Origin: Antitrichia curtipendula
Taxonomy: Eukaryota; Streptophyta; Bryopsida; Hypnales; Leucodontaceae
Reading direction: 5' to 3'
NCBI GenBank assembly: GCA_951230915.1
Contig: OX579635.1
Span: 21,452,001 to 21,516,000 of the forward strand
Length of the DNA stretch: 64,000 nucleotides
Position numbers and translations under genes: made by a program. Shown here in pieces: positions 9,445 to 64,000 of this stretch. The notes beneath the pieces were generated by a model. The model saw only the letters and a program-made list of their open reading frames with translations. It was not told the origin of the DNA and did no database searches. Every line of letters starts with the position of its first letter. Position 1 is the first letter of the stretch.

Positions 9445-9564
9445 AGGGACCAGCTGTAGCAGGTCTTTACATCTGCTCTCCTCACTGTCGGATCGGAGCT
9501 GGGATATATCGGCAACCGTCATTTGAGCTAGTGTGACTCATTTCAGTTGCTGTATTCATTTGCG

Positions 9565-10221
9565 ATGGCGAAACTCTGTGTGTCATTTCTGGTGGCCGCA
9601 GCATTCCTCGTGGCGTTTGTGTCCGCTGGGGATCCCGGCCCCATTAATGACTACTGCGTTGCCGACTTGAAGAACCCGTTCGTCTTCAATGGCCTGGCGT
9701 GCAAGTCTCCGGCGTTGCTGAAGGCCTCAGACTTCACTTTCACGGTGTTTCGCGCCGACGCCGACACCAACAACCCGGCGGGCGTCGGACTGGCGTTGGG
9801 CTTCGCAGCCATCAACTACCCGGCGCTCAACACGCAGGCGCTCTCTCTGGCGAAGATCAACTACGCCCCGGGTGGCTTGGTGGCGCCGCACACGCACCCT
9901 CGCGGCGCCGAGATCATCACGGTGACGAAGGGGAAGGTGTACGTGGGCTTCGTGGACACGGCGGGCAAGCTGTTCGCGATTTGGTTGAAGAAGGGCGATT
10001 TCTTCTTGTTCCCTCAAGGCTTGGTACACTTCATTTTGAATGGTGGCAAGCCGTCCATCACGCTGTCGATCCTGAATGCGCAGAACCCCGGCCTGCAGTT
10101 GGTTGCTCCCGCGCTGTTCGGGTCCACGCCGCCCGTACCCAGCCCGCTGCTGGCGAAGGCGTTCGGCACCTCCGTGTCCACCGTGGACTCCATCAAGAAG
10201 GTCTTTCAGCCGGCCCCGTAA
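9565..10221 (+). CDS. Germin-like protein (secreted cupin)
   Basis: An intronless 218-residue protein. A hydrophobic signal peptide covers residues 1 to about 21 (ending VSAG), so it should be secreted to the cell wall. The mature N-terminus has the germin box with Cys31 and Cys46, the usual disulfide pair. Cupin motif 1 (PHTHPRGAE) supplies metal ligands His109, His111 and Glu116. Motif 2 (GDFFLFPQGLVHF) supplies His155. All four Mn-binding ligands of the family are present. Germins and germin-like proteins form oligomers in the apoplast, and some have oxalate oxidase or superoxide dismutase activity; which applies here cannot be read from sequence. The start is the ATG at 9565; the frame is open a little further upstream, but only from a TTG. 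The coding region is strikingly GC-rich compared with its AT-rich flanks. Length is normal for the family. Confidence 0.95.
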   Translation: MAKLCVSFLVAAAFLVAFVSAGDPGPINDYCVADLKNPFVFNGLACKSPALLKASDFTFTVFRADADTNNPAGVGLALGFAAINYPALNTQALSLAKINYAPGGLVAPHTHPRGAEIITVTKGKVYVGFVDTAGKLFAIWLKKGDFFLFPQGLVHFILNGGKPSITLSILNAQNPGLQLVAPALFGSTPPVPSPLLAKAFGTSVSTVDSIKKVFQPAP

Positions 10222-32847: not shown

Positions 32848-35350
32848 GTAAGACAGTTGGAGTTCATTCTTTAATTTTGTTCTTGAATCTTGACGACAGT
32901 TTCGAGTTTCTGGGGAACTTATGGACCCATGCCATATAATTGCATATTGCAGCACGCCCTGATTGATCGCTTTGTGGCAGTAAAAGAAGAGGAAGAAAAT
33001 GAAGCAAAGAGCCTGGCGAAGAAGGTCAATCCAGCATTGAAAGTGAATGGCGTCCGAGCCTTTACACATGAGGAGCTAGCCGAGGCAACAGATAGTTTCA
33101 GTGAGGAGAGGCAAATTGGCCAAGGTGGCTATGGCAAGGTATTCATGGGCACGCTGCAAGATGGAAAGCAAGTGGCCGTCAAGGTTGCTGATCCGGCATC
33201 CTGCCAAGGAGCGCGTGAGTTTTACACTGAGATTGAGCTCTTATCAAGAATACATCACAGGAATCTCGTGATGCTTGAGGGCTACTGTGACGATGAGAAT
33301 CACGAGGTAGGCGATATGCCATAGCTAGTGTTCTGAATACTTGCACTGAATTCTGAACTATTGTTTGAGCAGAATGTTTGAACTTTCGGGTGTAATCGAG
33401 ACGATCGTTAGGATGAGAATCCGAGAAATTAGCTTTCTCGGATTGTTAGGATGTTGTGTATAATTCCTTTCTTTTTGGGTTAGGGAGCATGGCCATTTTT
33501 GTTTCACTTTTTAGCACGAAGTGAGTTTTGCACAGTAGCATGTTGGTTTACGAATTCATCTTTCTGGTTTCATGCGCATGAATTGATTAAACAACAACTT
33601 CGCTGATTCTGCAGATGCTGGTTTACGAATTCTTGCCCGGTGGTACTCTTAAGGATCATTTTTCTGGTAAGCATTAACCCCTAAGCGCTCCGACCAACGT
33701 TCATATTCTGGACGATTAATAGATTGGTTCAGGGGCAATGTTTCATCAATAAATACCTTCTCCTTCTTCCAAAGGATTACTTGAATACTTTACAAGGCAG
33801 CCTTTTTGGATGACCAATTCGGACAAAGATACAAGCAAAAAATGTGCAAAAATTCAAAGAAGGGATTCAAGGGTTGAATAGATGATATTTTCTTCTGCAA
33901 TCGTTCTCTGTAACTAGAAATTAGCACCTATTTGCGTAGAACAACCGTGTATGATTCGTTTCTCGTGTGTTGCAGCACGTTCAGACCGTACACCTTTGGA
34001 TTTCCCATCGCGTCTACGAATTGCACTAGGTGCAGCGCGAGGAATTCGTTACCTGCACACGGAAGCCAACCCACCCATATTCCACCGGGACATCAAGGCC
34101 AGCAACATCTTGTTGGACAAGCGGAAGGGAGCCAAAGTGGCCGACTTTGGATTGTCATGCTGGGCACCGGTGCCAGACTTGGAGGGCGTCACTCCTGCGT
34201 ATGTCTCCACGGTTGTGAAAGGCACTCCCGGCTACCTCGACCCGGAGTACTACATGACACAGAAACTGTCTGACAAGAGCGACGTGTACAGCTTCGGTGT
34301 GGTGCTGCTGGAGCTCATCACGGGCTTGCAAGCCATCACCGAGGGCAAGAACATTGTCCGAGAGGTAAACGTTTGGCTCAACTTTGGATATCAAGCACAT
34401 CAGACGGTGCTGGAGTCAGAGAGAGAAATCAATCCGATCCTTCGGTGGAACCAGTGTTCATTAATTGATCGCTTAAACCCTGAAGAACCAAGGATTAATG
34501 GTATCTGCAATTGATCATATGGTGAAAGAATGTACTATGGATGACCGGGTATAATTTCATACAGCAAGAATCATTGAAGAAAATTTGATGTGGTTGTAAA
34601 TATAAATAAAATAACACAAAAATATCCCACATACTGGACAACCTACTCAAAAAATTTGCGAAAAAAAATGAGGTTTAGTTTGGACTCCTTGGTCGCCAGG
34701 TCCCGCATCAAAGCCCATAGGATTGTGAGTCACACGAGGGTTCTCTTGTAAAGGGTAGACTGGACTAGAGTTTCTCACATTCGAGTTTTGGGAGGTTATA
34801 CTGCATGAATTCCTAGGGCTTCCATAAAAGTCTGTTTTAATGGAGTCATTGGCGTTAGTGGCCATGGTCAAGGTGTCAAAAATTGAGGTCTGAAGATATC
34901 ACACCTACATGAACTCTGGAATGTGAAATTCGGTGCATGTGTAGGAGAAATTTTCAGGAAGGAGATTAGGCCATTCTCTTCAGGAATCTGGCACTGATAT
35001 GTTGGAATTTCTTGGTTGCATGAACCGATGTTCAGGTGAATAACAGAGCTGTAGAGGGGAATGCATCGACTCTGGTAGACCCCCACATAGCGAACTATGC
35101 ACCGGAGGCGTTGGAGTGGTTCATGGGCTTAGCTCAGAGGTGTTGCAGGAAAACTCCTGAAAAGCGACCCACTATGGTTGAGGTAGTAAGCGAATTGGAG
35201 CAATTGGGGAAGTGCCATGTGGATGCTTTCTCCCAGGAATTGTCGACACCACCGGAGAATGTATCACCTCCCGGGCCCAGCAAGCCTCTTCAGAGCTCCA
35301 GCGGTGGCGGAATTTGGTGTGAAACCGTGATGCACGTGTCACCCAGGTGA
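32760..35350 (+). CDS. Receptor-like Ser/Thr kinase, LRR VIII-1 type, no ectodomain
   Basis: Five exons join in frame with GT-AG introns: 32760-32847, 32981-33306, 33615-33666, 33976-34364 and 35036-35350, giving 389 residues. The kinase domain is complete: glycine loop IGQGGYGKV (75-83), VAVK Lys97, helix-C Glu113, HRD Asp194 with Asn199 (FHRDIKASN), DFG Asp212, activation segment [10 protein letters not shown] (238-247) and the C-lobe motif [15 protein letters not shown]. The phrases [27 protein letters not shown] and GKNIVREV are characteristic of the plant LRR VIII-1 receptor kinase group. The N-terminus is only a transmembrane segment and basic juxtamembrane stretch. No leucine-rich repeats were found upstream. 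It may be a truncated, membrane-anchored kinase or a 5'-truncated gene copy. All catalytic residues are intact, so it has not decayed as a kinase. It is an RD kinase, expected on the cytoplasmic face of the plasma membrane. Confidence 0.85.
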
Positions 35351-37035: not shown

Positions 37036-38070
37036 TTATTGTATGTGATAAGATTTGATGGAGAACTCAGTTTGTACACAAGTCAGTGTTAAAAGAACAG
37101 CAGCAGAAAACAAAGCCAAAAAACAACCAAGGCTGTCGGCTATGAAAAATCTATGGTAAAATGACCCCAACATCACCCGCCACTTAGTTGAATCACAAAT
37201 TTTCTTCACATCCTTCAACACCGTCTCTGTACTCTTCAACAAGCATATCTGGAGGGGGGTTTCGGTTCCTGTACTGAAAAATGCTGCAGCCGATTCCGTA
37301 ATACCCCATTTAATTACTTCGGCATTTCTGAGAACTTCTACATCTCGAGTGTTAACAATTAAGCAATTCATGACATGCATGAGTAATCTCAGAAAATAGG
37401 TTCTTTCGCCATGGATTCATATACCAAAAAGCTTCGGCAAAAGATCCTCATACATTTTCACCGAGGCCAAGTACAAGGTCTGTCCCTTGAATTCTTTGAC
37501 CTTGCCCCTGCTGGATCCCTTCCTTTCCATGTCATCTTGGCCTTCCCCACTCACCCCTTGCAAACGACTTATTAAACTGAAACCCAAGAGAAATCAGCGC
37601 AGAAGCTGAGGGAATGATAATATTAGGCTCGCGAGTTGAGAAATGCTCTTGGGCTGGTTACCACACACCTTTCGATATGCAAAGTCTAAAAGATGGTCGT
37701 AATCAACTCCAATTGACATTCAACCTCCACTCTTCCATGATATCCTTAACCCATACTAATTCCCTAACCATATTACTTGGATCTCGAATCTGGGTGTCAC
37801 GAAATGGACTTAGAAAAGGCAATACATTCAACAATAGCATGTGAACCTTGGTACTCGTTTGGTCCTGTTGGAACTTATGATAGCACCTGTTCGAAAGTAT
37901 CTCAACTGCCTCTGCCAATAGCGGCATGGGAAGCTGATTCTCCAACAATGCAATGTCGGTAGGCATCATGTGCATCAACCCTCTCAACCCTTTCTCTGAA
38001 GAAAACAAAAACACCAACCAAGCGCAAACCGCTTCTCTAGCTCAGAATAAAGCCAGGCGGCAAGCCAGAG
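37036..38070 (-). pseudogene. DUF247 family pseudogene
   Basis: DUF247 signatures appear in order on the minus strand but in different frames. TDIALLENQLPMPLL and DPSNMV lie at about 37703-38017. YDHLLDFAY follows a frameshift near 37705. IIIPSASALISLGFQF lies near 37590-37640. TLYLASVKMYEDLLPKLF lies near 37430-37500 and ends at a TGA. Then comes the C-terminal block MNCLIVNTRDVEVL. The last part is WRVMLGSFY..FF and a C-terminal hydrophobic helix (FLALFSAAVLLTLTCVQTEF), typical of the family. At least two frameshifts and one in-frame stop break the gene, and I found no clean N-terminus. DUF247 proteins are plant-specific membrane-anchored proteins. Some sit at grass self-incompatibility loci, but no role should be inferred for this relic. 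Small introns could explain one break but not all of them. Confidence 0.75.
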
Positions 38071-39083: not shown

Positions 39084-40304
39084 GTAAGGTTGGGCATGTG
39101 TGGTCGACTTTCATGGAAAAGAGATGACGATTTCAAAGGTACATATTGTATACGTACACTGCGTGCTGGTTTATGTCGTCTCCTTGGCGTGTTATCACCT
39201 CAAATTGTATTTATCTCCGAGTTAACTGATTTATCGCTACTTAGGTACACGTTTGCACGACTGTAAATAATTAACGAGCTTTTGGTCAATTTGCTCAGTC
39301 TGCTTCGTGTTGTGTATAAGTGTATCGGCTGTTCTAAGATGTCTATTATAAGACTCTTGATTGAGATCCTTGAATAGTGAAGTTTTAAAGCTAGCTAAGT
39401 TGTAGAACCCCGGTTGTGAAGTCGAGAGTTTGTCTACAGTATGTAGTGGAATATTCTAGTCAGAACCTTACTTCCTGACTGTAATTGCGCAGACGACAAA
39501 ATGAGAAGCCATTTCGAATCTTGTCAAATTTTTGCTGTAATTTTGTGACATTTGAGTCTGGCTGCACTCCCTATCTAGACGATCTCTAGTGGTGGCTCAC
39601 ACTTCAAACCTGAGCTCATGTGCTCATTGACCCTCGCGCCTAGGACGCCCTTGGCCATGGCTGTCCCAGAGAAAGTGAGGCTGAACCGCCCAAACCTTAC
39701 ACCTCAGTTACCTTGTTCCCGCAGCGCTCACACCCCAAGTCACTCCCTGCTGTTGATAGATCAAGTCTCTCCTCGCCCTAAACAACTGCATCTTGGGCAT
39801 TTGTTCATGCACTTTGATCTTTGGTTCTCGTAAATGCTCTGTATTTCCGCTCTCGAGTAATGTTTTGAAGACACTGCTCTCTGCAATTACTCGAGCTTAC
39901 ATTAGAACTTACATCTTGTTTTAAATCTTGGTACCAACTTTTTACTTGTAACAGCTTTTCACGGCATGAAACCTTAGTCCTTACTACTCCTATTTTTTAG
40001 AGCTACGTAAGTATATATAGATTTGTGTCACAATTTTTGTCGTCGGAGCCCATTAATTTAAAGCCATTCAAGACGATGTGGGCTCAATACCGGTAACTTC
40101 CATTGAACTCATCCCCTAGCTATTTAATCCTATAAACCTGTGCTCATAAGTCGAGTCTCCTGATCTTGAGCACCTAATGGCTTGAGATGCAAAGCTTCCC
40201 CATCTCCTGGTGCTCATAAACGTTTGTGTTTTGATTGAGTTCAAAACTGTCGTCGAAATCGTATGGGCTCATGACTTCCATTGACGCATTTGCTGTATGT
40301 ACAG

Positions 40305-40985
40305 AGTGATATGAAGATCGAAGGGGGCCTCTCTGCGCAACCAGACGGCAGCGTCCTCTTCGACGGCGGCCTCAGCAACGGAGAAGGCAGCAAATTCAGC
40401 AAATTCTCTCTCTCCTTCAAAATCTCCCAGGAATCCCCTCCCGACTCCGTCTCCCAAGAAGAGTGGAAGCAACCGGAAGAACACGAGATCAAGTTTTTCC
40501 ACCATTCCGAACACAAGCTCCTTCTCGCCCCTGAAAATTACTACAACGACGTGATCATGGGCAAGGCCACCTGCGACGCGTGCACGGAGTCCATCACCAA
40601 GGGAAACGCCAGGTGGGTGCACGAATGCTCCGACAACTGCGATTACAGCGTGCACGCTAAGTGTGCGCAGCTAGCGAGGACCATCCGACACCCGAGCCAC
40701 CTGAAACACAACCTCCAGCTCCTCAAACTAGCACCCGGGTGTTCCAAAATATGCGATGTGTGCAAGGGGAGCATCTCGCGTGGACTGCACTACAATTGTG
40801 CGATGTGTGACTTCGATTTGCATCCGGAGTGTCCGGATCCAGAGAAAGCTCCTGGCGATAAGGTGGACGATGCGAAGAAGGGTGTGAGGGAAATGACGCC
40901 GGCGAAGATGCAGGTGGATATGGCACAGCAGATGGCGGCCAGTATGGCGAGTGTTGGGCAGGCCATGTGTAATTTAATTGGATGA
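40305..40985 (+). CDS. DC1-domain (C1-like zinc finger) protein
   Basis: Main exon of a Cys/His-rich protein, 224 residues if counted from the ATG at 40311. Two DC1 domains follow one another. The first, about 64-118, has His residues in FFHHSEHKLLL, the pair CDAC (88, 91), then C106, C110, H115 and C118. The second, about 129-174, has H130/H133, CDVC (148, 151), C163, C166 (YNCAMCDFDLHPEC), H171 and C174. Both have the full set of zinc ligands expected for the plant DC1 family, which is related to diacylglycerol-binding C1 domains and implicated in stress and hormone responses. The first 60 residues are Ser/Gly-rich. The C-terminus is a short Met/Ala-rich amphipathic stretch. A 51-base upstream exon at 39033 splices in phase. 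An alternative is transcription from the TATATATAG at about 40012 with the start at 40311. Codon usage is GC-rich, like the germin-like gene. Confidence 0.85.
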   Translation, partial: SDMKIEGGLSAQPDGSVLFDGGLSNGEGSKFSKFSLSFKISQESPPDSVSQEEWKQPEEHEIKFFHHSEHKLLLAPENYYNDVIMGKATCDACTESITKGNARWVHECSDNCDYSVHAKCAQLARTIRHPSHLKHNLQLLKLAPGCSKICDVCKGSISRGLHYNCAMCDFDLHPECPDPEKAPGDKVDDAKKGVREMTPAKMQVDMAQQMAASMASVGQAMCNLIG

Positions 40986-46029: not shown

Positions 46030-46923
46030 TAGTTTTATATATGCCGCATCATGACAATGCACTTAATATATTGCCAAAAAACATTGGAATTTGAATTTTT
46101 CAAAGTTTTCTTGTAGAAGCTAAGAAAAAATTTTAATCTTCAAATTTTCTACTATATAACTATTTTAAGACAAATGAGGGGTGCATGTAGGGTTTGGTTA
46201 GTTCTGTTGGTGCATGAGAATTCGTCAACTTTGAAATTTGAATTGACCACATGTGAAAATTCTTGACTACCTTGATTTTGAATACTTGGAAAAATCTTAG
46301 AACATATTCATACTATCTTTGCGATCATCATAAACATGCTTCAGTTTTAAATTGTAGAATTTGGTGTTTGCAAGCCACCAAAGGCGATTGAGATTTGCTT
46401 TATTAGAGCTTGTGATAGTATTTGACCAAATTCCCTCCTATTTGTGAAATATATTTAAATTAAAAAAATTTAAAGTCTCACTCCTACCAAAAATAGAGTT
46501 TTGTAGGGATAGTAATTTTCCCCCTCACTAGTAATACGACAGATCAATGCGTAGCTCAAAGCCCATCCTGACTCCTTTCCAACCAAACCGTCGACGCAAG
46601 GTAACAACGAGAAAGTCGCCATTCGGACGCGTTTTTAGTCCTCAGTCAACGTCGTTACGTCGTTTTAGGTTTTACGCATGCAAGGGCAAAGGCCTTTCTC
46701 TCTCAGTCTTATCAAACCGAACACGGTGTGTGCCTAGTTGTCTCCATCGTATATCTACGGTAGCTCCGAGCTCTCTTCCACAGGGGACGCAATTGAAGGG
46801 TTATGTACTAAATCTCAGCACCAGCTGTCCTGCAATCTTGGAGCAGGTTGCAAGTGGAGAAGGGTGCCTAGCGTACGTTTGATCCTCTCCAAGCACGTTC
46901 AGTCTGTTTTCTTATCGATTTGT

Positions 46924-47723
46924 GTAAGTACGTACATACGTTGTTTCACTTGTTTCATGAGCTCGATCCGACTGTTGGAATCTTGTTAAATTTGATTCGC
47001 TTCATGTTTTGGAAATCTTGAAGCGAATCTAACTACTGAAGATATGTTCAAATTGGTACCAGCAGTTCCGTCGACAGTTCCGTCGGGCCTTGCATCTTCC
47101 GTTCACAGGGGTGTATATGTAAAGTCGTTGAAATCTACAAGCTTGACTGCAAGTTTCACTGTTTAACTTAGATTCAATCTGCTTTTGCTCATACGGTTGC
47201 ACTTTGCTGTTTCACTTCTTGTCTTCTTGAATTCTGTGTTAGAAATCAGGATATCCTAGTTCGATCCTCCAGGGGGGAAGTGAGACCACAAGTGAATTGT
47301 TCATATTTCCCTGTAATTGTTCATATTTCCCTGTAACATAAGATTTTCCAAATTCTCCTGCTATCTCTGACAAAGGGAATTGGTGTGAATTTTCGGTCTC
47401 CTTTCCCGTGCAAAATTGTGGTTCGGTACGTCTAGTCTTGGTTGAAAATCAATGCAAATTATAGTTACGCATGTGCTCTGTTTGCAAAAGGATGGTCGCT
47501 AGCTAGGTATTCTCGCTTGTCTATCTCAGAATTTTGTGGTAAAAATGTCAAGTTTGTTTAATCTGTCGGTATTCCACTGCCTCGGCACTTTCAGGCCTGA
47601 AACCTAAATCTGCACGTGGGCTATTTTTTAGACTTTGCATAGATATATGACACAGTTTTTTGCGCCAGAAGGACGACACTTTAACGAATTCGCACGAATG
47701 AGAAAACTTGGTGTATGATGCAG
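46924..47723 (+). other. Predicted 5'-UTR intron of lectin-TIR gene 1
   Basis: Donor GTGTAAGTACG (GT at 46924) and acceptor TGTATGATGCAG (AG at 47722-47723) lie at the same places in copy 2 (61081 and 61589-61590), while the DNA between them has diverged in length (800 versus 510 bases). A leader exon thus precedes the ATG exon. Conserved leader text near 46680-46870 includes CAAGGGCAAAGGCC and CCGAGCTCTCTTCC. Confidence 0.6.
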
Positions 47724-47799
47724 GCTGAGAAGACTGCCAGCAAGTTCACACAGTGACTAGGAGATCAAGTTTGAGTTCTGAGTACTCCAGACCTCCATC

Positions 47800-49443
47800 A
47801 TGGGAAAATCCTCAGGATTGGCCATCCTTCTGGATGGAGCTCGTCTATTTTGCTTAGGTGTGCTGGCCCTTCTTCTGAGCTTAACATGTGGTTCAAATGT
47901 CGGGGCTGTCACTTTCGCTTATAGTGGCTTCGAGGAGAATTCTCTTTACTCAGTGCCTGATGGCAACTGGATTTTTGACGGCAATAGTGGCTGTTTCCAT
48001 ATCGATCTTGCTGCAAGTTTTGGATTTTCCGGCTCCTCAGCTGGTCGAATTCTCTATCCATTTGCCGTGCAAATGATAGATCCTGGTTCCACAACAGTAA
48101 AATCTTTCAGCACCTCATTCATCTATCACTTTCAGCGTACGTTTGGTACAGGGCCAGGTATGGCCTTCATTATAGTTCCTGACAACGTCACCTTAGGAGC
48201 TTCCGGAGATTACATGGGACTCATATCCTCCGAAACCTCCGGACCCGGAAAGAATTATGAATCTGATAAACATACCTTCGGTGTGGAATTGGACACCTAC
48301 AGGAACCCGGAGTTCCACGATCCCAGCAGTAATCATATTGGTATTAACTTGGCCAGTATGAAATCTACTTATTCGTTTACGCCTGCCTACAGCTTGGCTT
48401 CAAGAAGCCAACTCCAGCAAATCTGGATTGATTATGATGAAACCGACTCTCGTATGGATATCTACTTTGCAAACTATAAGGAGCGCAAGCCTGATAAGCC
48501 ACAAGGAACACAGAGCGGACTAGATTTATCGCTTTTAAAGGAGAAGATGTTCACTGGTTTCTCATCTGCAAATTACAACTCAAAACATTCCGATTTTCCC
48601 TATGTTTGCGCATGGAGCTTCAGCAACGACGGCAGTCCAGCGCCATCAATTCTTATGGCCCAAGACGAGCGGAAGAAAAAGCACTCGGGGATACATGTGG
48701 GAGTCCCTGTATTGCTAATAGTGTCTGTTGGAATGATTATCTGCATAATTGTTTCACTATGTTGGTGTAGATTTGTGCGCCGTCCTCTACGTATTTTCAT
48801 ATCCCATGCAGGTGGTCCGGATGGATCTCAGAAAAACTTTCCAACATGGCTAGACGAAAGAATGAGGACATGGCCCTGGTCCGTTGCCAAGTCTCGTGTC
48901 CGAATCTTTTTTGACACAGAAGATGTTGAAATGGGCAAATCGATTGCAAAGGAAATCTTAAGAGAGTTAGCAAGATTTGATGTGGGGGTCGTGGTGGTGA
49001 CCAATGCTTTCTTTGCAGCGAAGTGGCCTATGACAGAGTTGATTGCTTTTGTGGAAGCTCAGACGAAAGATCCTACGGATAGAATTCGAGTATTACCTCT
49101 GTTCTACGAGCTCTCACCAGAAGAAGTAAGGGCTCATCTGGTCGGAAAAACTTGGGAAGGTCGTTGGGAGGAAATGAGCACGGGAAATCACCCTCTCCCG
49201 GTGGAAAAGTGTAGACAAGCGGTGACTTGGCTTTGCCAACAAAGAGGTATTCCATACGGTTATAAGAAACGCCATCAAGACAAAGTCTACATAGAGACCA
49301 TCTGTAAGGAAGTCGATGAAATTCTGTGCAAAGAGGAGGGCTTTGCATCGTACGTCATCGGGGCTGTGAAGACCTACAGCGGTATTTCTACTCACTCTAA
49401 ACCGGGAATGACAATCCACGAAACTGAGATGACCCTCCTGTGA
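47800..49443 (+). CDS. Lectin-TM-TIR receptor, copy 1
   Basis: A single coding exon of 547 residues. Signal peptide 1 to about 36 (VLALLLSLTCGS), then a legume-type (L-type) lectin domain, about 37-285. The metal-site signature is GVELDTY (Glu163, Asp165) with Asn169, Asp174 and His179 (NHIGINL), and the closing strand motif is CAWSFS. The sugar-contacting Asp normally seen in the DGLAF motif is replaced (GPGMAF, 118-123), as in many lectin receptor kinases. A transmembrane helix lies at about 299-323, followed by Arg-rich residues. TIR domain from 329 to about 465: RIFISHAG, an SVAKSRVRIFFD strand, GKSIAKEI, WPMTEL with Glu413 at the position of the catalytic NADase glutamate of plant TIRs, and VLPLFYELSPEEVR. 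No NB-ARC or kinase domain is present. Predicted: an extracellular lectin sensor with a cytoplasmic TIR effector at the plasma membrane. The family assignment is secure; ligand and enzymatic activity are inferred. Confidence 0.9.
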   Translation: MGKSSGLAILLDGARLFCLGVLALLLSLTCGSNVGAVTFAYSGFEENSLYSVPDGNWIFDGNSGCFHIDLAASFGFSGSSAGRILYPFAVQMIDPGSTTVKSFSTSFIYHFQRTFGTGPGMAFIIVPDNVTLGASGDYMGLISSETSGPGKNYESDKHTFGVELDTYRNPEFHDPSSNHIGINLASMKSTYSFTPAYSLASRSQLQQIWIDYDETDSRMDIYFANYKERKPDKPQGTQSGLDLSLLKEKMFTGFSSANYNSKHSDFPYVCAWSFSNDGSPAPSILMAQDERKKKHSGIHVGVPVLLIVSVGMIICIIVSLCWCRFVRRPLRIFISHAGGPDGSQKNFPTWLDERMRTWPWSVAKSRVRIFFDTEDVEMGKSIAKEILRELARFDVGVVVVTNAFFAAKWPMTELIAFVEAQTKDPTDRIRVLPLFYELSPEEVRAHLVGKTWEGRWEEMSTGNHPLPVEKCRQAVTWLCQQRGIPYGYKKRHQDKVYIETICKEVDEILCKEEGFASYVIGAVKTYSGISTHSKPGMTIHETEMTLL

Positions 49444-50820
49444 TTTTAACCTCCATGACGTCTTCAGGGAGTAATACTTTAGGATCCCTTATTTGTGACA
49501 CTGAATTTTCCCAGCTGCTGCTTTTCCCATAAGGAAACAAGGATAACTTCTCTGGGAGTGATGGGTTCTAGAGCGCCAAAAACACGTGACACCCAGAGGT
49601 GTGGAAAGTAAGACTGATGGGAATCTGACATTTCATTTGAGGGACTGAAACAGTGTCTATCCCATTGAAATCCTGCATTTCGACATATACAATTGAGTTT
49701 TTCAGCTTCACGGGGTAGCCATTGATTCCAAATTTCAGAATTTCCGGGCATTCGCTGCTGAGGCTGGTCCATTTGGTTGAGCTTTCTGAAGTTTCCACAG
49801 CTGGTTTGGGTGAATTGTGCTTGCGTTTGGTGTCTTTCCTTAGAACGCAAGACACAAGTTGCTGGTGAAAAACACGAAGGTGGCTGCTTTCGACATGGCC
49901 AAAGTGTTCCATATCGAGCAATGTTACCAATGTGAACATCGCCATCTCAGAAAAAGGTGAGCAAGGACTTCCTTGTCCAACCCTAATCCGACCATGTACA
50001 CATCCTTTGACTGATTAGGGTTTAGGGCTATTCTACACTAACTGAATGGGCACTTTATCAGATCGTTATCGAACTGTTATCAGAAAAGTTCATGTGGAAG
50101 TCCATATGCCAGAAAGTACAAGCTGGGGGCCTTCTTACTTAATTGCATTGTTACATTGTCTTTGATTCTTCAGTAGCTGACCTTGTGGTTGTGGGATGCA
50201 ACAGAACTGTCAAACTGTTGAAATGAAGTGGAGAAAATTCTGCACATGATTCCAATTAATGGCCAGTATTGAATACGATGCAAGAGCTGGCGATATCGAC
50301 TGCAAAGATTTTGCATGAAACACTCTGAACGGAGGATGTGGTAGGATTCTGTTAGAGGAGATGTGGAAAAGAGGAGGTTAATTGCGAGTTAATTGAAGCT
50401 CATGGACTTTGATTTTGGCCATTGCCGATGTATTTTGAGTGCTCAGCATGTCTTCTACATTGAGAAATTCAGATGTGAGCGCTTTCACCTTTCCCAAGCT
50501 AGTCAGGATCATTTGATCTGATTTAATTGCACAATTGAATTCATGATTGGACGTTCTTATGTTTTGCTTCTCGGTATTGAATATTGCACTCCTATCCAAA
50601 ATACAATCTCCTGACGCGAGTTCTGATGTTCTTAATTGTACCATGAAATTATGGCGTGAAGGAATTTTCGGCTATTCGTAAATCTTCTCTTAAAGAGTAA
50701 CCGAAGTTGTTGAGTTGTCTGAAATTATTCCCCGGCCCCAGGAGACTCTTTATTCATGCCAATGTTAAGGTGAGCGCTTTGCTCGTCAAGTTTCTCTAAA
50801 TGTCAAATTTCGTGGTGTGT
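49444..50820. other. 3' flank of lectin-TIR gene 1
   Basis: Minus-strand open frames occur at 49568-49945 and 50378-50644 (about 125 and 88 codons). They show no domain I recognise. The first is broken in the homologous flank of copy 2, so I do not annotate genes here. Confidence 0.4.
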
Positions 50821-59405: not shown

Positions 59406-60169
59406 AATACATTTCATGTAGGAGTGAGCCAAGTTCATTGCTTTAATCACTTCAGTATTGAATAATTTAGATACTTGAAGCTCATATGATAATTTATAAG
59501 AATTTCATCTACAACTGAAAATTGCAATAATTTATTTTTCTTAATATGTATATAGTGGAAATATCATGACCATGCACTTCATTCATTGCCAAAAAACATA
59601 GGAATTTGGATTTTTGCAAAGTTTATCTTAGAAGCTAAGAGAATTTATTATTTAGTGATTGTTCAAATTTTCTGTAATTCTATAATTATTTTAAGACAAG
59701 TGAAGGTTGTAACTAGGGTTTGGTTAATTTTATTAGTGCATGAAAATTCATCAAGTGAGCTTTGAATTGAGCATATGTGAATTTTTTTGACTACCTTGGT
59801 TTTGACTATTTGGAATTTTTTAAGAAAATATTCCAATATTCTTTGTAATAATTAGACACATGTTTCAATTCTAAATTGTAGATTGTAGTGTAAGTTGCCA
59901 TGGCTTTGTAATCCACCAAAGGCAATTGCAAGTTGTATTGATTTACCTTATTAGAGCTTGTTATAGTATTTGACCAAAATCTTCCTATTTGTGAAATATA
60001 TTAAAATGATTGAAAGCTAAAAGTTTAAGATGTTCTTTCAATTTCCACACATAGAGACTTTTGAAGCAATAGTAATTTCTCCTCACTAATACTAGGATAG
60101 AAGAATGCGAAGCTCAAAACCCATCCTCCCTGCTTTCCCAACTTCCTAGCCCATCTGTCAACACAAGGT

Positions 60170-60775
60170 TAGATCAATGACAAACAACAGGCTCAAAACA
60201 TTGTTGAGTTTGGCAAGGGTGAACTTAAATAACCTTGAAAAAACTCAAACAACCATGGAAAAACTCAAATAACCTTGACAAAAACTCAAGGACAATGGCA
60301 CAAAATAGGTTCCAAAAAGGAATGTCTTCCTAAAACACTATCATTTTTTGACTCATTCAATGTGTGCTAAAAATTTTGCATTTTTTTTACCTGAATTTGA
60401 TGACAAATTCATGAGAAAGTTGTAATACTCCATCCAAAATACTATTGAGCTAGATTTGGCCTATATAGCATATTAGTATATGATGGTGGTCTACCAACAT
60501 GCCTTCTATAGCATCCTGTAATTTTTGAAATTTTTCAATATTGTTTTCATTTTCGGAAGGACATTTTTCTAAAGTCTAAAGAGTCCGGAAAGTGATACCC
60601 ATATCGTGCCATTGCCTTCAAATAACCCTCAAGAAAGAAAACGTAAAAGGCTATGAAAGACATGGGAAGAAAAGGGCCATCCTACGTGAAATTCAAGACC
60701 GAAATGTTATGTAGGAACTCAATCAAAAAATGATTTAATTTCTGAACCAATACTCACAATATTCGTTTCTACAGT
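60170..60775. other. Insertion specific to copy 2 upstream region
   Basis: About 600 bases interrupt the homology between the two loci right after CACAAGGTTA. They include a short tandem tract near 60230-60290 (AACTCAAATAACCTTGA repeated with variants). No terminal repeats are obvious. It displaces distal promoter sequence by about 0.6 kb relative to copy 1. Confidence 0.55.
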
Positions 60776-61080
60776 AACCGAGCGAAAGTCGGCATTTGGA
60801 CATTTTAGTCCTTAGTGAGCGTCGTCTTAAGTTTTACGCTTGCAAGGGCAAAGGCCTCTCTCTCTGTCTTATCAAACCAAACGTGGTGTGTGCCCAGTTG
60901 TCTCCATCGTATATCTCGCTCCGAGCTCTCTTCCTCAACGGGACGCAAGTCACGCAACTGAAGGGTTATGAACCATATCTGAGCCTCAGCTGTCCTGCAA
61001 GCTTGGAGCAGATAGAAATGGAGAAGGGTGGTGCCTAGCGTACGTTTGATCCTCTCCAAGCACGTTCAATCTTTTTCTGT

Positions 61081-61590
61081 GTAAGTACGGTGTTTCTGTA
61101 TCACTTGTTTCATGACTTTGATCTGACTGATGGAAATCTTGTTCAAATTGATTCGCAAGACAGTCCGGCAGGCCTCACATCTTCCATTCACAGAGGTGTA
61201 TAGTCATTGAAATCTACAAGCTTGGCTGCAAGTTTCACTGTAACAGTTTAAGTTAGATTCAATCTGGTTTTGCTCATACGGTCGCACTCGCTATTTCACT
61301 TCTTCAAATCTGTGTTAGAAATCAGGATATCCTAGCTTGATCCTCCAGGGGGAGGTGAGACCACAAGTGAGGTCGGAAGTAGCTAGCTTGTCTAGCTCGG
61401 AATTGTGGTAGAAATGTAAAGTTGTTAATTTGTCGGTATTCCACTGCCTCGGCATTTGCAGGCCTGAAACCTAAATCTGCACGTCGGCTAGTTTTTAGAC
61501 TTTGCATCGATGTATGACACAATTTTTTGCGCCAGAATGATGTCAATTTAACGAAATCGCACGAATGAGAAAACTTGGTGTATGATGCAG
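61081..61590 (+). other. Predicted 5'-UTR intron of lectin-TIR gene 2
   Basis: Same donor (GTAAGTACG) and acceptor (TGTATGATGCAG) as in copy 1, but 290 bases shorter. Conservation of the two splice sites despite internal deletions supports a real leader intron. Confidence 0.6.
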
Positions 61591-61666
61591 GCTGAGAAGA
61601 CTGCCAGCAAGTTCACACAGTGACTAGGAGATCAAGTTCGAGTTGTGAGTACTGCTGACCTCCATC

Positions 61667-63295
61667 ATGGGAAAATCCTCAGGATTGGCCATCCTTCTGG
61701 ATGGAGCTCGTCTATTTTGCTTAGGTGTGCTGGCCCTTCTTCTGAGCTTAACATGTGGTTCAAATGTCGGGGCTGTCACTTTCGCTTATAGTGGCTTCGA
61801 GGAGAATTCTCTTTACTCAGTGCCTGATAGCAACTGGATTTTTGACGGCACTAGTGGTTGTTTCCTTATCGATCCTGCTGCAAGTCTTGTTATTTTCGGC
61901 TACTCAGCTGGTCGGATTCTCTATCCATCTGCCGTGCAAATGATAGATCCTGGTTCCACAACAGTAAAATCTTTCAGCACCTCATTCATCTATCACTTTC
62001 AGCGTACGTTTGGTACAGGGCCAGGTATGGCCTTCATTATAGTTCCTGACAACGTCACCTTAGGAGCTTCCGGAGACTACATGGGACTCATAACCTCCGA
62101 AACCTCCGGACCCGGAAAGAATTATGAATCTGATAAACATACCTTCGGTGTGGAATTGGACACCTACAGGAACACGGAGTTCCACGATCCCAGCAGTAAT
62201 CATATTGGTATTAACTTGGCCAGTATGAAATCTACTTATTCGTTTACGCCTGCCTACAGCTTGGCTTCAAGAAGCCAACTCCAGCAAATCTGGATTGATT
62301 ATGATGAAACCGACTCTCGTATGGATATCTACTTTGCAAACTATAAGGAGCGCAAGCCTGATAAGCCACAAGGAACACAGAGCGGACTTGATTTATCGCT
62401 TTTAAAGGAGAAGATGTGCACTGGTTTCTCATCTGCAAATTACAACTCAAAACATTCCGATTTTCCCTATGTTTGCGCATGGAGCTTCAGCAACGACGGC
62501 AGTCCAGCGCCATCAATTCTTACGGCCCAAGACGAGCGGAAGAAGAAGCACTCGGGGATACATGTGGGAGTCCCTGTATTGCTAATAGTGTCTGTTGGAA
62601 TGATTATCTGCATAATTGTTTCACTATGTTGGTGTAGATTTGTGCGCCGTCCTCTACGTATTTTCATATCCCATGCAGGTGGTCCGGATGGATCTCAGAA
62701 AAACTTTCCAACATGGCTAGACGAAAGAATGAGGACATGGCCCTGGTCCGTTGCCAAGTCTCGTGTCCGAATCTTTTTTGACACAGAAGATGTTGAAATG
62801 GGCAAATCGATTGCAAAGGAAATCTTAAGAGAGTTAGCAAGATTTGATGTGGGGGTCGTGGTGGTGACCAATGCTTTCTTTGCAGCGAAGTGGCCTATGA
62901 CAGAGTTGATTGCTTTTGTGGAAGCTCAGACGAAAGATCCTACGGATAGAATTCGAGTATTACCTCTGTTCTACGAGCTCTCACCAGAAGAAGTAAGGGC
63001 TCATCTGGTCGGAAACACTTGGGAAGGTCGTTGGGAGGCAATGAGCAAGGGTAATCACCCTCTCCCGGTGGAAAAGTGTAGACAAGCGGTGACTTGGCTT
63101 TGCCAACAAAGAGGTATTCCATATGGTTATAAGAAACGCCATCAAGACAAAGTCTACATAGAGACCATCTGTAAGGAAGTCGATGAAATTCTGTGCAAAG
63201 AGGAGGGCTTTGCATCGTACGTCATCGGGGCTGTGAAGACCTACTGCGGTATTCCTACTCACTCTAAACCGGGAATGACAAGTCCACGAAACTGA
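61667..63295 (+). CDS. Lectin-TM-TIR receptor, copy 2
   Basis: A single coding exon of 542 residues, same architecture as the gene at 47800: signal peptide, legume-type lectin with intact metal-site residues (GVELDTY, NHIGINL), transmembrane helix and TIR domain with Glu413 in WPMTEL. I count 19 substitutions against copy 1 before the tails diverge. Nine or ten of these fall between residues 55 and 88 of the lectin domain, where copy 1 FGFSGS becomes copy 2 LVIFGY. The TIR domain differs at only a few positions near its end (K450N, E458A, T461K). A one-base insertion just before the stop changes the C-terminus to GMTSPRN, five residues shorter. Both reading frames are intact, so both genes are probably functional. 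Predicted as a plasma-membrane lectin receptor with a cytoplasmic TIR. Confidence 0.9.
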   Translation: MGKSSGLAILLDGARLFCLGVLALLLSLTCGSNVGAVTFAYSGFEENSLYSVPDSNWIFDGTSGCFLIDPAASLVIFGYSAGRILYPSAVQMIDPGSTTVKSFSTSFIYHFQRTFGTGPGMAFIIVPDNVTLGASGDYMGLITSETSGPGKNYESDKHTFGVELDTYRNTEFHDPSSNHIGINLASMKSTYSFTPAYSLASRSQLQQIWIDYDETDSRMDIYFANYKERKPDKPQGTQSGLDLSLLKEKMCTGFSSANYNSKHSDFPYVCAWSFSNDGSPAPSILTAQDERKKKHSGIHVGVPVLLIVSVGMIICIIVSLCWCRFVRRPLRIFISHAGGPDGSQKNFPTWLDERMRTWPWSVAKSRVRIFFDTEDVEMGKSIAKEILRELARFDVGVVVVTNAFFAAKWPMTELIAFVEAQTKDPTDRIRVLPLFYELSPEEVRAHLVGNTWEGRWEAMSKGNHPLPVEKCRQAVTWLCQQRGIPYGYKKRHQDKVYIETICKEVDEILCKEEGFASYVIGAVKTYCGIPTHSKPGMTSPRN

Positions 63296-63510
63296 GATGA
63301 CCCCCCTGTGACTTTAACCTCCATGTCTTCAGGGAGTAATACTTTAGGATCCCTTATTTGTGACACTGAGTTTTCCCAGCTGCTGCTTTTCCCTTATTCC
63401 CCTCGTTCCTCGTACGAAGTACTTTGGGAAAGTTCTCATATTCCCGTAAGGAAACAAGGATAACCTCTCTGTGAATGGTGGGTTCTAGATCGCCAAAAAA
63501 TTGTGACACC

Positions 63511-63760
63511 CTGTTGTGTTACATTAAATTCTCACTTGTGCTAATTTTGCATATCGGTCTGTTTTTCAAGGGTCGTTGTGCATATTTTTAGTAGTTTTGT
63601 GAGGGCTTTTTTTAGTCTATACTTCGCCACCTGCAATGAGTCAAGCTTGTTAAGTCTTTTGAAATTTCTAGGTGCATGATAATTTGGGAAGTAATACTAC
63701 AACCTAATAATATTTAGATACATTTCTTCTACAAGAAATGACCGTACAACTATGTACAGA
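63511..63760. other. Insertion specific to copy 2 3' flank
   Basis: About 250 bases present here but absent from the copy 1 flank, between TGTGACACCC and GGAAAGTAAGACTG. No terminal repeats are evident. It may equally be a deletion in copy 1. Confidence 0.5.
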
Positions 63761-64000
63761 AACTCTGGAAAGTAAGACTGATGTGAATCTGGTGTTTCAG
63801 TTGAGCGGCTGAAACAATGCCAATGTCATGGAAATCCTCCATTTTGACAAATGCAATTGAGTTTTCCAGCCTCATGATGTAGCCATTGGTTCCAAATTTC
63901 AGAATTTCCGGGCATTAGCTGCTCAGGGTGGTCCATTTAGTTGGCTTTCTTAGAGTCTGTTAGCATAGATGTGGAAAAGAGGTGGTTGCGACTTAATTCA

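Follow-up and report, generated by a model that had tools for sequence, protein, structure and literature searches.

A lectin-membrane-TIR gene and its tandem copy

The window, i.e., the whole 64-kb stretch that was analyzed (C3:21452001-21516000 of the 400-Mb assembly of Antitrichia curtipendula, which was searched across its 303 contigs), carries two genes whose products join a legume lectin domain to a TIR domain through a membrane helix. The first, gene A (47800..49443, + strand, stop included), is a single open reading frame of 547 codons that needs no intron, and the chance of so long a frame staying open, given the gene's own base composition, is about 4e-14. All features of its 547-residue protein given below are on the + strand. 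A hydropathy scan (19-residue frame, threshold of 1.6) returned two peaks, at residues 8 to 26 (2.16), in the position of a signal peptide, and at residues 300 to 318 (2.97). By hydropathy, residues 1 to 36 (47800..47907) are therefore signal-peptide-like, and the second peak falls in a single predicted transmembrane helix (residues 300 to 322; 48697..48765), which is also a helix in the structural model. The helix is flanked by basic residues (ERKKKH) on its presumed outer side, and the inner side is basic too, a point that speaks against the receptor reading given below.

Pfam matches were reported at E values up to 1 and compared with the curated cut-offs. The ectodomain matched Lectin_legB at residues 37 to 283 (47908..48648; E = 3.4e-41, 141.9 bits for a cut-off of 26.3), covering positions 2 to 242 of the 250 of the profile, i.e., a full L-type domain. 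Past the helix, both TIR (PF01582, residues 363 to 479, E = 1.5e-8, 35.1 bits for a cut-off of 21.3) and TIR_2 (PF13676, residues 332 to 440, E = 3.6e-8, 34.3 bits for a cut-off of 28) exceeded their cut-offs, and the model shows a TIR fold over residues 328 to 513 (48781..49338). The fourth Pfam model, Lectin_L-type_dom, stayed under its cut-off (29.5 versus 78.3), and the NCBIfam matches were far under theirs. Up to the same E value of 1, no kinase model matched the protein, which has a TIR in its place, and no NB-ARC model did, the TIR being C-terminal; Pfam gave no leucine-rich repeat (LRR) match either, the ectodomain being a legume lectin. Prediction of the full-length structure gave a pLDDT of 35.3 and was not used, which leaves sequence as the basis for the lectin fold. 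The original prediction had proposed, from the letters of the gene, this one-exon frame with a signal peptide, a complete lectin domain, one transmembrane helix and a TIR domain, lacking both kinase and NB-ARC; each of these elements was recovered at the same place, the signal peptide by hydropathy.

Gene A does not stand alone: it is duplicated and belongs to a wider family. Gene B (61667..63295, + strand, 542 residues), which the original prediction did not mention, has the same domains and 96% protein identity to gene A, and only its C-terminal residues (539 to 542) depart from an ending that gene A shares with a public relative, P0001.

The rest of the window holds receptor-like kinase exons (32887-34514; Pkinase, E = 1e-21), a germin-like cupin gene (9562-10221; Cupin_1, E = 6.3e-33), a C1_2 (DC1-type) zinc-finger frame (40275-40982) and the end of a DUF247 plant protein (37039-37416, - strand). 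The DUF247, C1_2 and germin-like cupin neighbors of gene A are of plant type. Scans with Rfam (gathering cut-offs) and for tRNAs found nothing in the 64-kb window.

Divergence of the two copies

The two genes lie in a 2.0-kb block (47512-49528 and 61383-63393) that is 97% identical, and their flanks are more diverged than this core. Upstream of gene A, three blocks within 46048..47295 (+ strand) can be aligned with 59563-61370 upstream of gene B, with 0.087 to 0.170 substitutions per site; downstream, two blocks within 49524..49787 (+ strand) can be aligned with 63441-63950, with 0.139 to 0.162. Within the 2.0-kb block, the 288 bases directly 5' of the start codon hold 22 differences. Over all codons, dS was 0.0226 and dN 0.0154. 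Codons 70 to 83 (14 of 536) include a stretch of compensating frame changes between A and B, and when they were omitted, dS was 0.0175 and dN 0.0107 (NG86). At these values, dN and dS are indistinguishable (P = 0.40), and the A-B pair does not show purifying selection. We infer an older tandem duplication in which the coding cores would later have been made alike by gene conversion, because protein constraint would not account for silent sites that differ so much less than the flanks.

The lectin domain keeps its metal site but not the loop-A aspartate

The best solved structure for the lectin of gene A was 3ujo (E = 1.5e-17). The segment of residues 163 to 179 (48286..48336) keeps E163, D165, N169, D174 and H179, which we take to be metal-site residues, as in legume lectins, and which were invariant in 8 of 8 aligned rows. 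Loop A (residues 117 to 123; 48148..48168) differs: the alignment to 3ujo pairs TGPGMAF with PADGLAF, so that the aspartate is replaced, and GPG stands at this position in all eight rows of A, B and P0001 to P0006. In sugar-binding legume lectins, the loop-A aspartate serves monosaccharide binding. It is present in some of the genome's kinase-linked lectins (HADGLAF in L043 and L044, HGDGMAF in L015). Classical monosaccharide binding by these A-type lectins seems doubtful from the sequence because this aspartate is replaced, though the metal site is kept; the recognition of a sugar, which the original prediction named beside a hydrophobic ligand, is weakened. Passages of PMC10311507 give eATP, eNAD+, eNADP+ and 3-OH-C10:0 as the only ligands identified for lectin receptor kinases (LecRKs), so small metabolites are, by analogy, an equally reasonable guess.

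The TIR domain keeps the catalytic-position glutamate

Glu413 (49036..49038), in the motif WPMTEL, occupies by alignment the position of the TIR catalytic glutamate, matching that of L6 and AT1G72930; the residue singled out in the original prediction is invariant in 15 of 15 rows. Residues 372 to 384 (48913..48951), aligned to L6 and other TIRs, form what we take to be the BB-loop. The structures nearest to the TIR model were plant TIRs, including one determined together with NAD, which answers the call for a structural check of the TIR fold. With its glutamate kept, the TIR of gene A is a putative NADase.

One alternative is a nonenzymatic adaptor, in which the TIR would be a docking surface recruiting cytosolic TIR proteins or NLRs and its own catalysis would be dispensable. 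Animal receptor TIRs act in this way (MyD88-type signaling), and the motif WPMTEL is unlike the WCLDEL or WCLMEL of the aligned plant TIRs, with even its tryptophan replaced in P0010 and L011. Such a role nevertheless seems unlikely, given the invariant glutamate and the plant TIRs, including the NAD-bound one, among the nearest structures. In the PF01582 search of the genome, the TIR of gene A scored low (37.6 bits, versus 107.6 for the best TIR), which speaks against the receptor reading given below.

Relatives among public proteins

A search with gene A, in which 7,999 candidates were scored, returned six proteins (P0001 to P0006). P0001 (538 residues, on another contig) is 81% identical to gene A over its full length and has both domains, with fewer basic residues on the presumed outer side of its helix. 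P0002 (607 residues) combines lectin and TIR at a greater distance, and the other four showed the lectin only. A second search with a membrane-TIR profile, again with 7,999 candidates scored, added 12 proteins. Of these, P0018 combines the end of a lectin with a hydrophobic stretch and a TIR; in P0007, P0008, P0011 and P0013, a Pro-rich start precedes the hydrophobic stretch and the TIR; and P0012 has no membrane helix by eye. Candidates in both searches were limited in length, and the proteins without a lectin may therefore belong to longer genes. P0003 (lectin) and P0009 (stalk, membrane helix and TIR) are each listed on a 4,376-base jgi contig and are presumably one gene split by an intron on the same contig. 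When the TIR region of gene A alone was used, P0001 was the sole match among 278 candidates. Some of the public relatives come from metagenome sources.

Two origins for gene A were considered and rejected. A chance artefact is ruled out by the domain scores, gene B and the relatives, and the fusion of two genes through a missed intron or stop is not supported because P0001 has the single frame too, even if an intron seems to divide some of the relatives.

Family copies in the genome

A third copy lies in pieces about 47 kb downstream of gene B, with a frame change in the TIR and an inserted stretch of about 350 bases that may be an intron. Relatives were found on three other contigs. On C9, a lectin-membrane-TIR copy (L014, 4728-6235; G000 C9:12461728-12463235) is interrupted by an in-frame stop and by a frame change. 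Two stalk-membrane-TIR frames are left on C8. One of them, L010 (3970-7922; G000 C8:4149970-4153922), lacks the lectin core: ahead of it, a signal-peptide-like segment is joined with hardly a gap to the end of the lectin, and its TIR frame extends for about 650 further residues, which include hydrophobic stretches and matched no Pfam model. On C6, TIR pieces are followed by a lectin piece on the same strand (L013, 4611-5816; L012, 4069-5253), the reverse of the order in gene A, and judging from their sequence these look like rearranged remains. The six other family loci examined in the genome were thus all disrupted or devoid of some parts.

These disrupted copies, together with an A-B rate ratio that shows no constraint, are what might be expected if gene A were a recent in-frame fusion of neighbors or a decaying gene that gives no product. 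This is very improbable, because the same fusion is present in gene B, in P0001 along the whole length at 81% identity and on another contig, and in the more distant P0002 and P0018.

Lectin_legB gave at least 82 matches in 68 groups across the genome, and PF01582 gave at least 78. Lectin-TIR pairs within 10 kb numbered two by profile matches (A and B, themselves duplicates) and four when the matches of the family search were added, for approximately 0.28 expected. Contig C4 of the same genome (G000), mostly between 32 and 42 Mb, holds several high-scoring TIR matches in frames of 161 to 190 residues with WCLKEL, unlike the TIR of gene A; these short frames are possibly TIR-only genes or first exons.

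One TIR group with lectins of different lineages

A first TIR tree of 36 rows (19 of the family and 17 genome TIRs picked from those most like A) placed the 19 family rows on one side of a branch with support of 100/100. Among the 17 nonfamily TIRs, 11 come from loci where a P-loop-like frame is present, as expected of NLR genes. Adding 18 of the TIRs with the highest PF01582 scores, which the first tree lacked (54 rows, 35 of them nonfamily) left the 19 family TIRs still on one side of a branch, at 98/98. Both trees are unrooted, P0018 is long branched, and about 40 of the 78 PF01582 matches are in neither tree. Since the public rows had been found by their similarity to the family, the independent part of this result is that L010, L011 and L013 fall inside the group and the 35 others outside.

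The lectins follow another pattern. In a tree of 27 of 30 rows (L015, L039 and L049 were dropped by the length rule), the A-type lectins formed a nine-row group (100/100), while the lectin of the C9 copy grouped with 11 other genome lectins (98/97), of which seven lie in frames that have a kinase motif. For the lectin end of P0018, the best match was the L053 lectin (53% over 68 columns), from a locus with a kinase-like frame by eye, and the second was the A-type lectin P0006 (42%). Because the C9 lectin and the P0018 lectin end are placed elsewhere, one TIR group carries, on the sequences compared, lectins of more than one lineage. Exchange of ectodomains within the family is what we infer, short of proof given a disrupted C9 copy and an incomplete P0018.

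The same placements bear on the possibility that the lectin-TIR protein is a co-receptor of LecRKs, pairing with them through its outer domain and adding a TIR branch to kinase signaling instead of working by itself. Lectin-kinase genes do exist in the genome (e.g., L015, with Lectin_legB at 3.9e-51 and a kinase at 3.3e-45), the C9 lectin is nearer to kinase-linked lectins than to that of A, and P0018 points to L053. Yet the lectins of A and B are on a branch of their own and nothing indicates a pairing, which makes this role rather improbable.

Comparison with known receptors

The domains are all known ones, and their arrangement is not that of LecRKs, TNLs or Toll-like receptors (TLRs). TLRs consist of an ectodomain, a single membrane helix and a C-terminal TIR. 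Gene A has this domain order and one hydrophobic helix, with the TIR predicted to be cytosolic and a lectin in place of LRRs; its TIR is nearest to plant TIRs in the modeled fold, and the resemblance to animal TLRs is thus one of layout and not of descent. With TNL, TNP and TIR-only proteins it has in common the plant-type TIR fold and the catalytic-position glutamate, but its TIR is C-terminal, after a membrane helix, and no NB-ARC model matched. The Arabidopsis TIR-Nictaba protein PP2-A5 has, to our knowledge, no membrane helix. It also combines TIR and lectin in one protein, although passages of PMC12355970 place the TIR at the N terminus and a PP2 domain, of another lectin family, at the C terminus. 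LecRKs likewise have a signal peptide, a legume lectin ectodomain and one membrane helix, and their cytosolic output is a kinase instead of a TIR; parts of PMC10311507 describe the sugar-binding residues of LecRKs, too, as poorly conserved.

The original prediction knew of no characterized plant receptor of this design, and likewise none was found in open-licence full texts (without supplements), among the matches listed. The parts of the literature consulted report a GNA-TIR-NB-ARC-LRR gene model in soybean (PMC6272470) and a TIR-NBS-Lectin_legB-Pkinase class (PMC11126693). By term count, the main text of a review of TIR architectures (PMC9153377) has no word beginning with "lectin", and the passages of PMC9915684 hold nothing on lectin-TM-TIR receptors. 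The domain lists of Van Holle 2019 (PMC6362431) are, according to its text, kept in the supplement. In sections of Ngou 2024 (PMC10834447), the receptor-like proteins include L-lectin proteins that have a membrane helix but lack a kinase, and lectin-TM-TIR proteins may have been counted among them with no mention of the TIR.

A putative surface receptor with a TIR output

Genes A and B probably encode cell-surface receptors with a lectin ectodomain and a TIR enzyme as output, and not sensors of simple monosaccharides. In the predicted topology they would be type I proteins of the cell surface, with the lectin-fold domain turned toward the apoplast and sensing a ligand, probably other than a simple monosaccharide. 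Clustering driven by this ligand would, through the single membrane helix, bring the cytosolic TIRs together, a step suggested by the way plant TIRs work; passages of PMC11218826 and PMC9806590 describe TIR activation by self-association and NAD cleavage. Once assembled, the TIRs, with their catalytic-position glutamate, would cleave NAD+ or generate a related nucleotide signal. Such a layout would be a plant counterpart of the TLR, with a lectin for the LRRs and without the kinase of LecRKs. A broader proposal, which we make only tentatively, is that of a class of plant surface receptors with a TIR-enzyme output, convergent with TLRs, in which a conserved membrane-TIR module would have acquired lectin ectodomains from at least two and perhaps three different lineages, and which may signal without EDS1.

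In the plant literature, as far as the sources consulted cover it, TIR signaling is mainly of NLR type or TIR only, and surface sensing is the task of receptor kinases and receptor-like proteins. If our reading is right, such receptors would connect surface sensing directly with TIR signaling, and plants and animals would both have reached the ectodomain-membrane-TIR layout. Parts of Chia et al. 2024 (PMC11218826) report that EDS1 is lacking in seed-free plants and that, among 20 TIR domains of nonflowering plants, 11 triggered moderate to strong cell death when examined in Nicotiana. Should the source of these genes be a seed-free plant, the receptors would offer a way into the question of how TIR signaling proceeds without EDS1.
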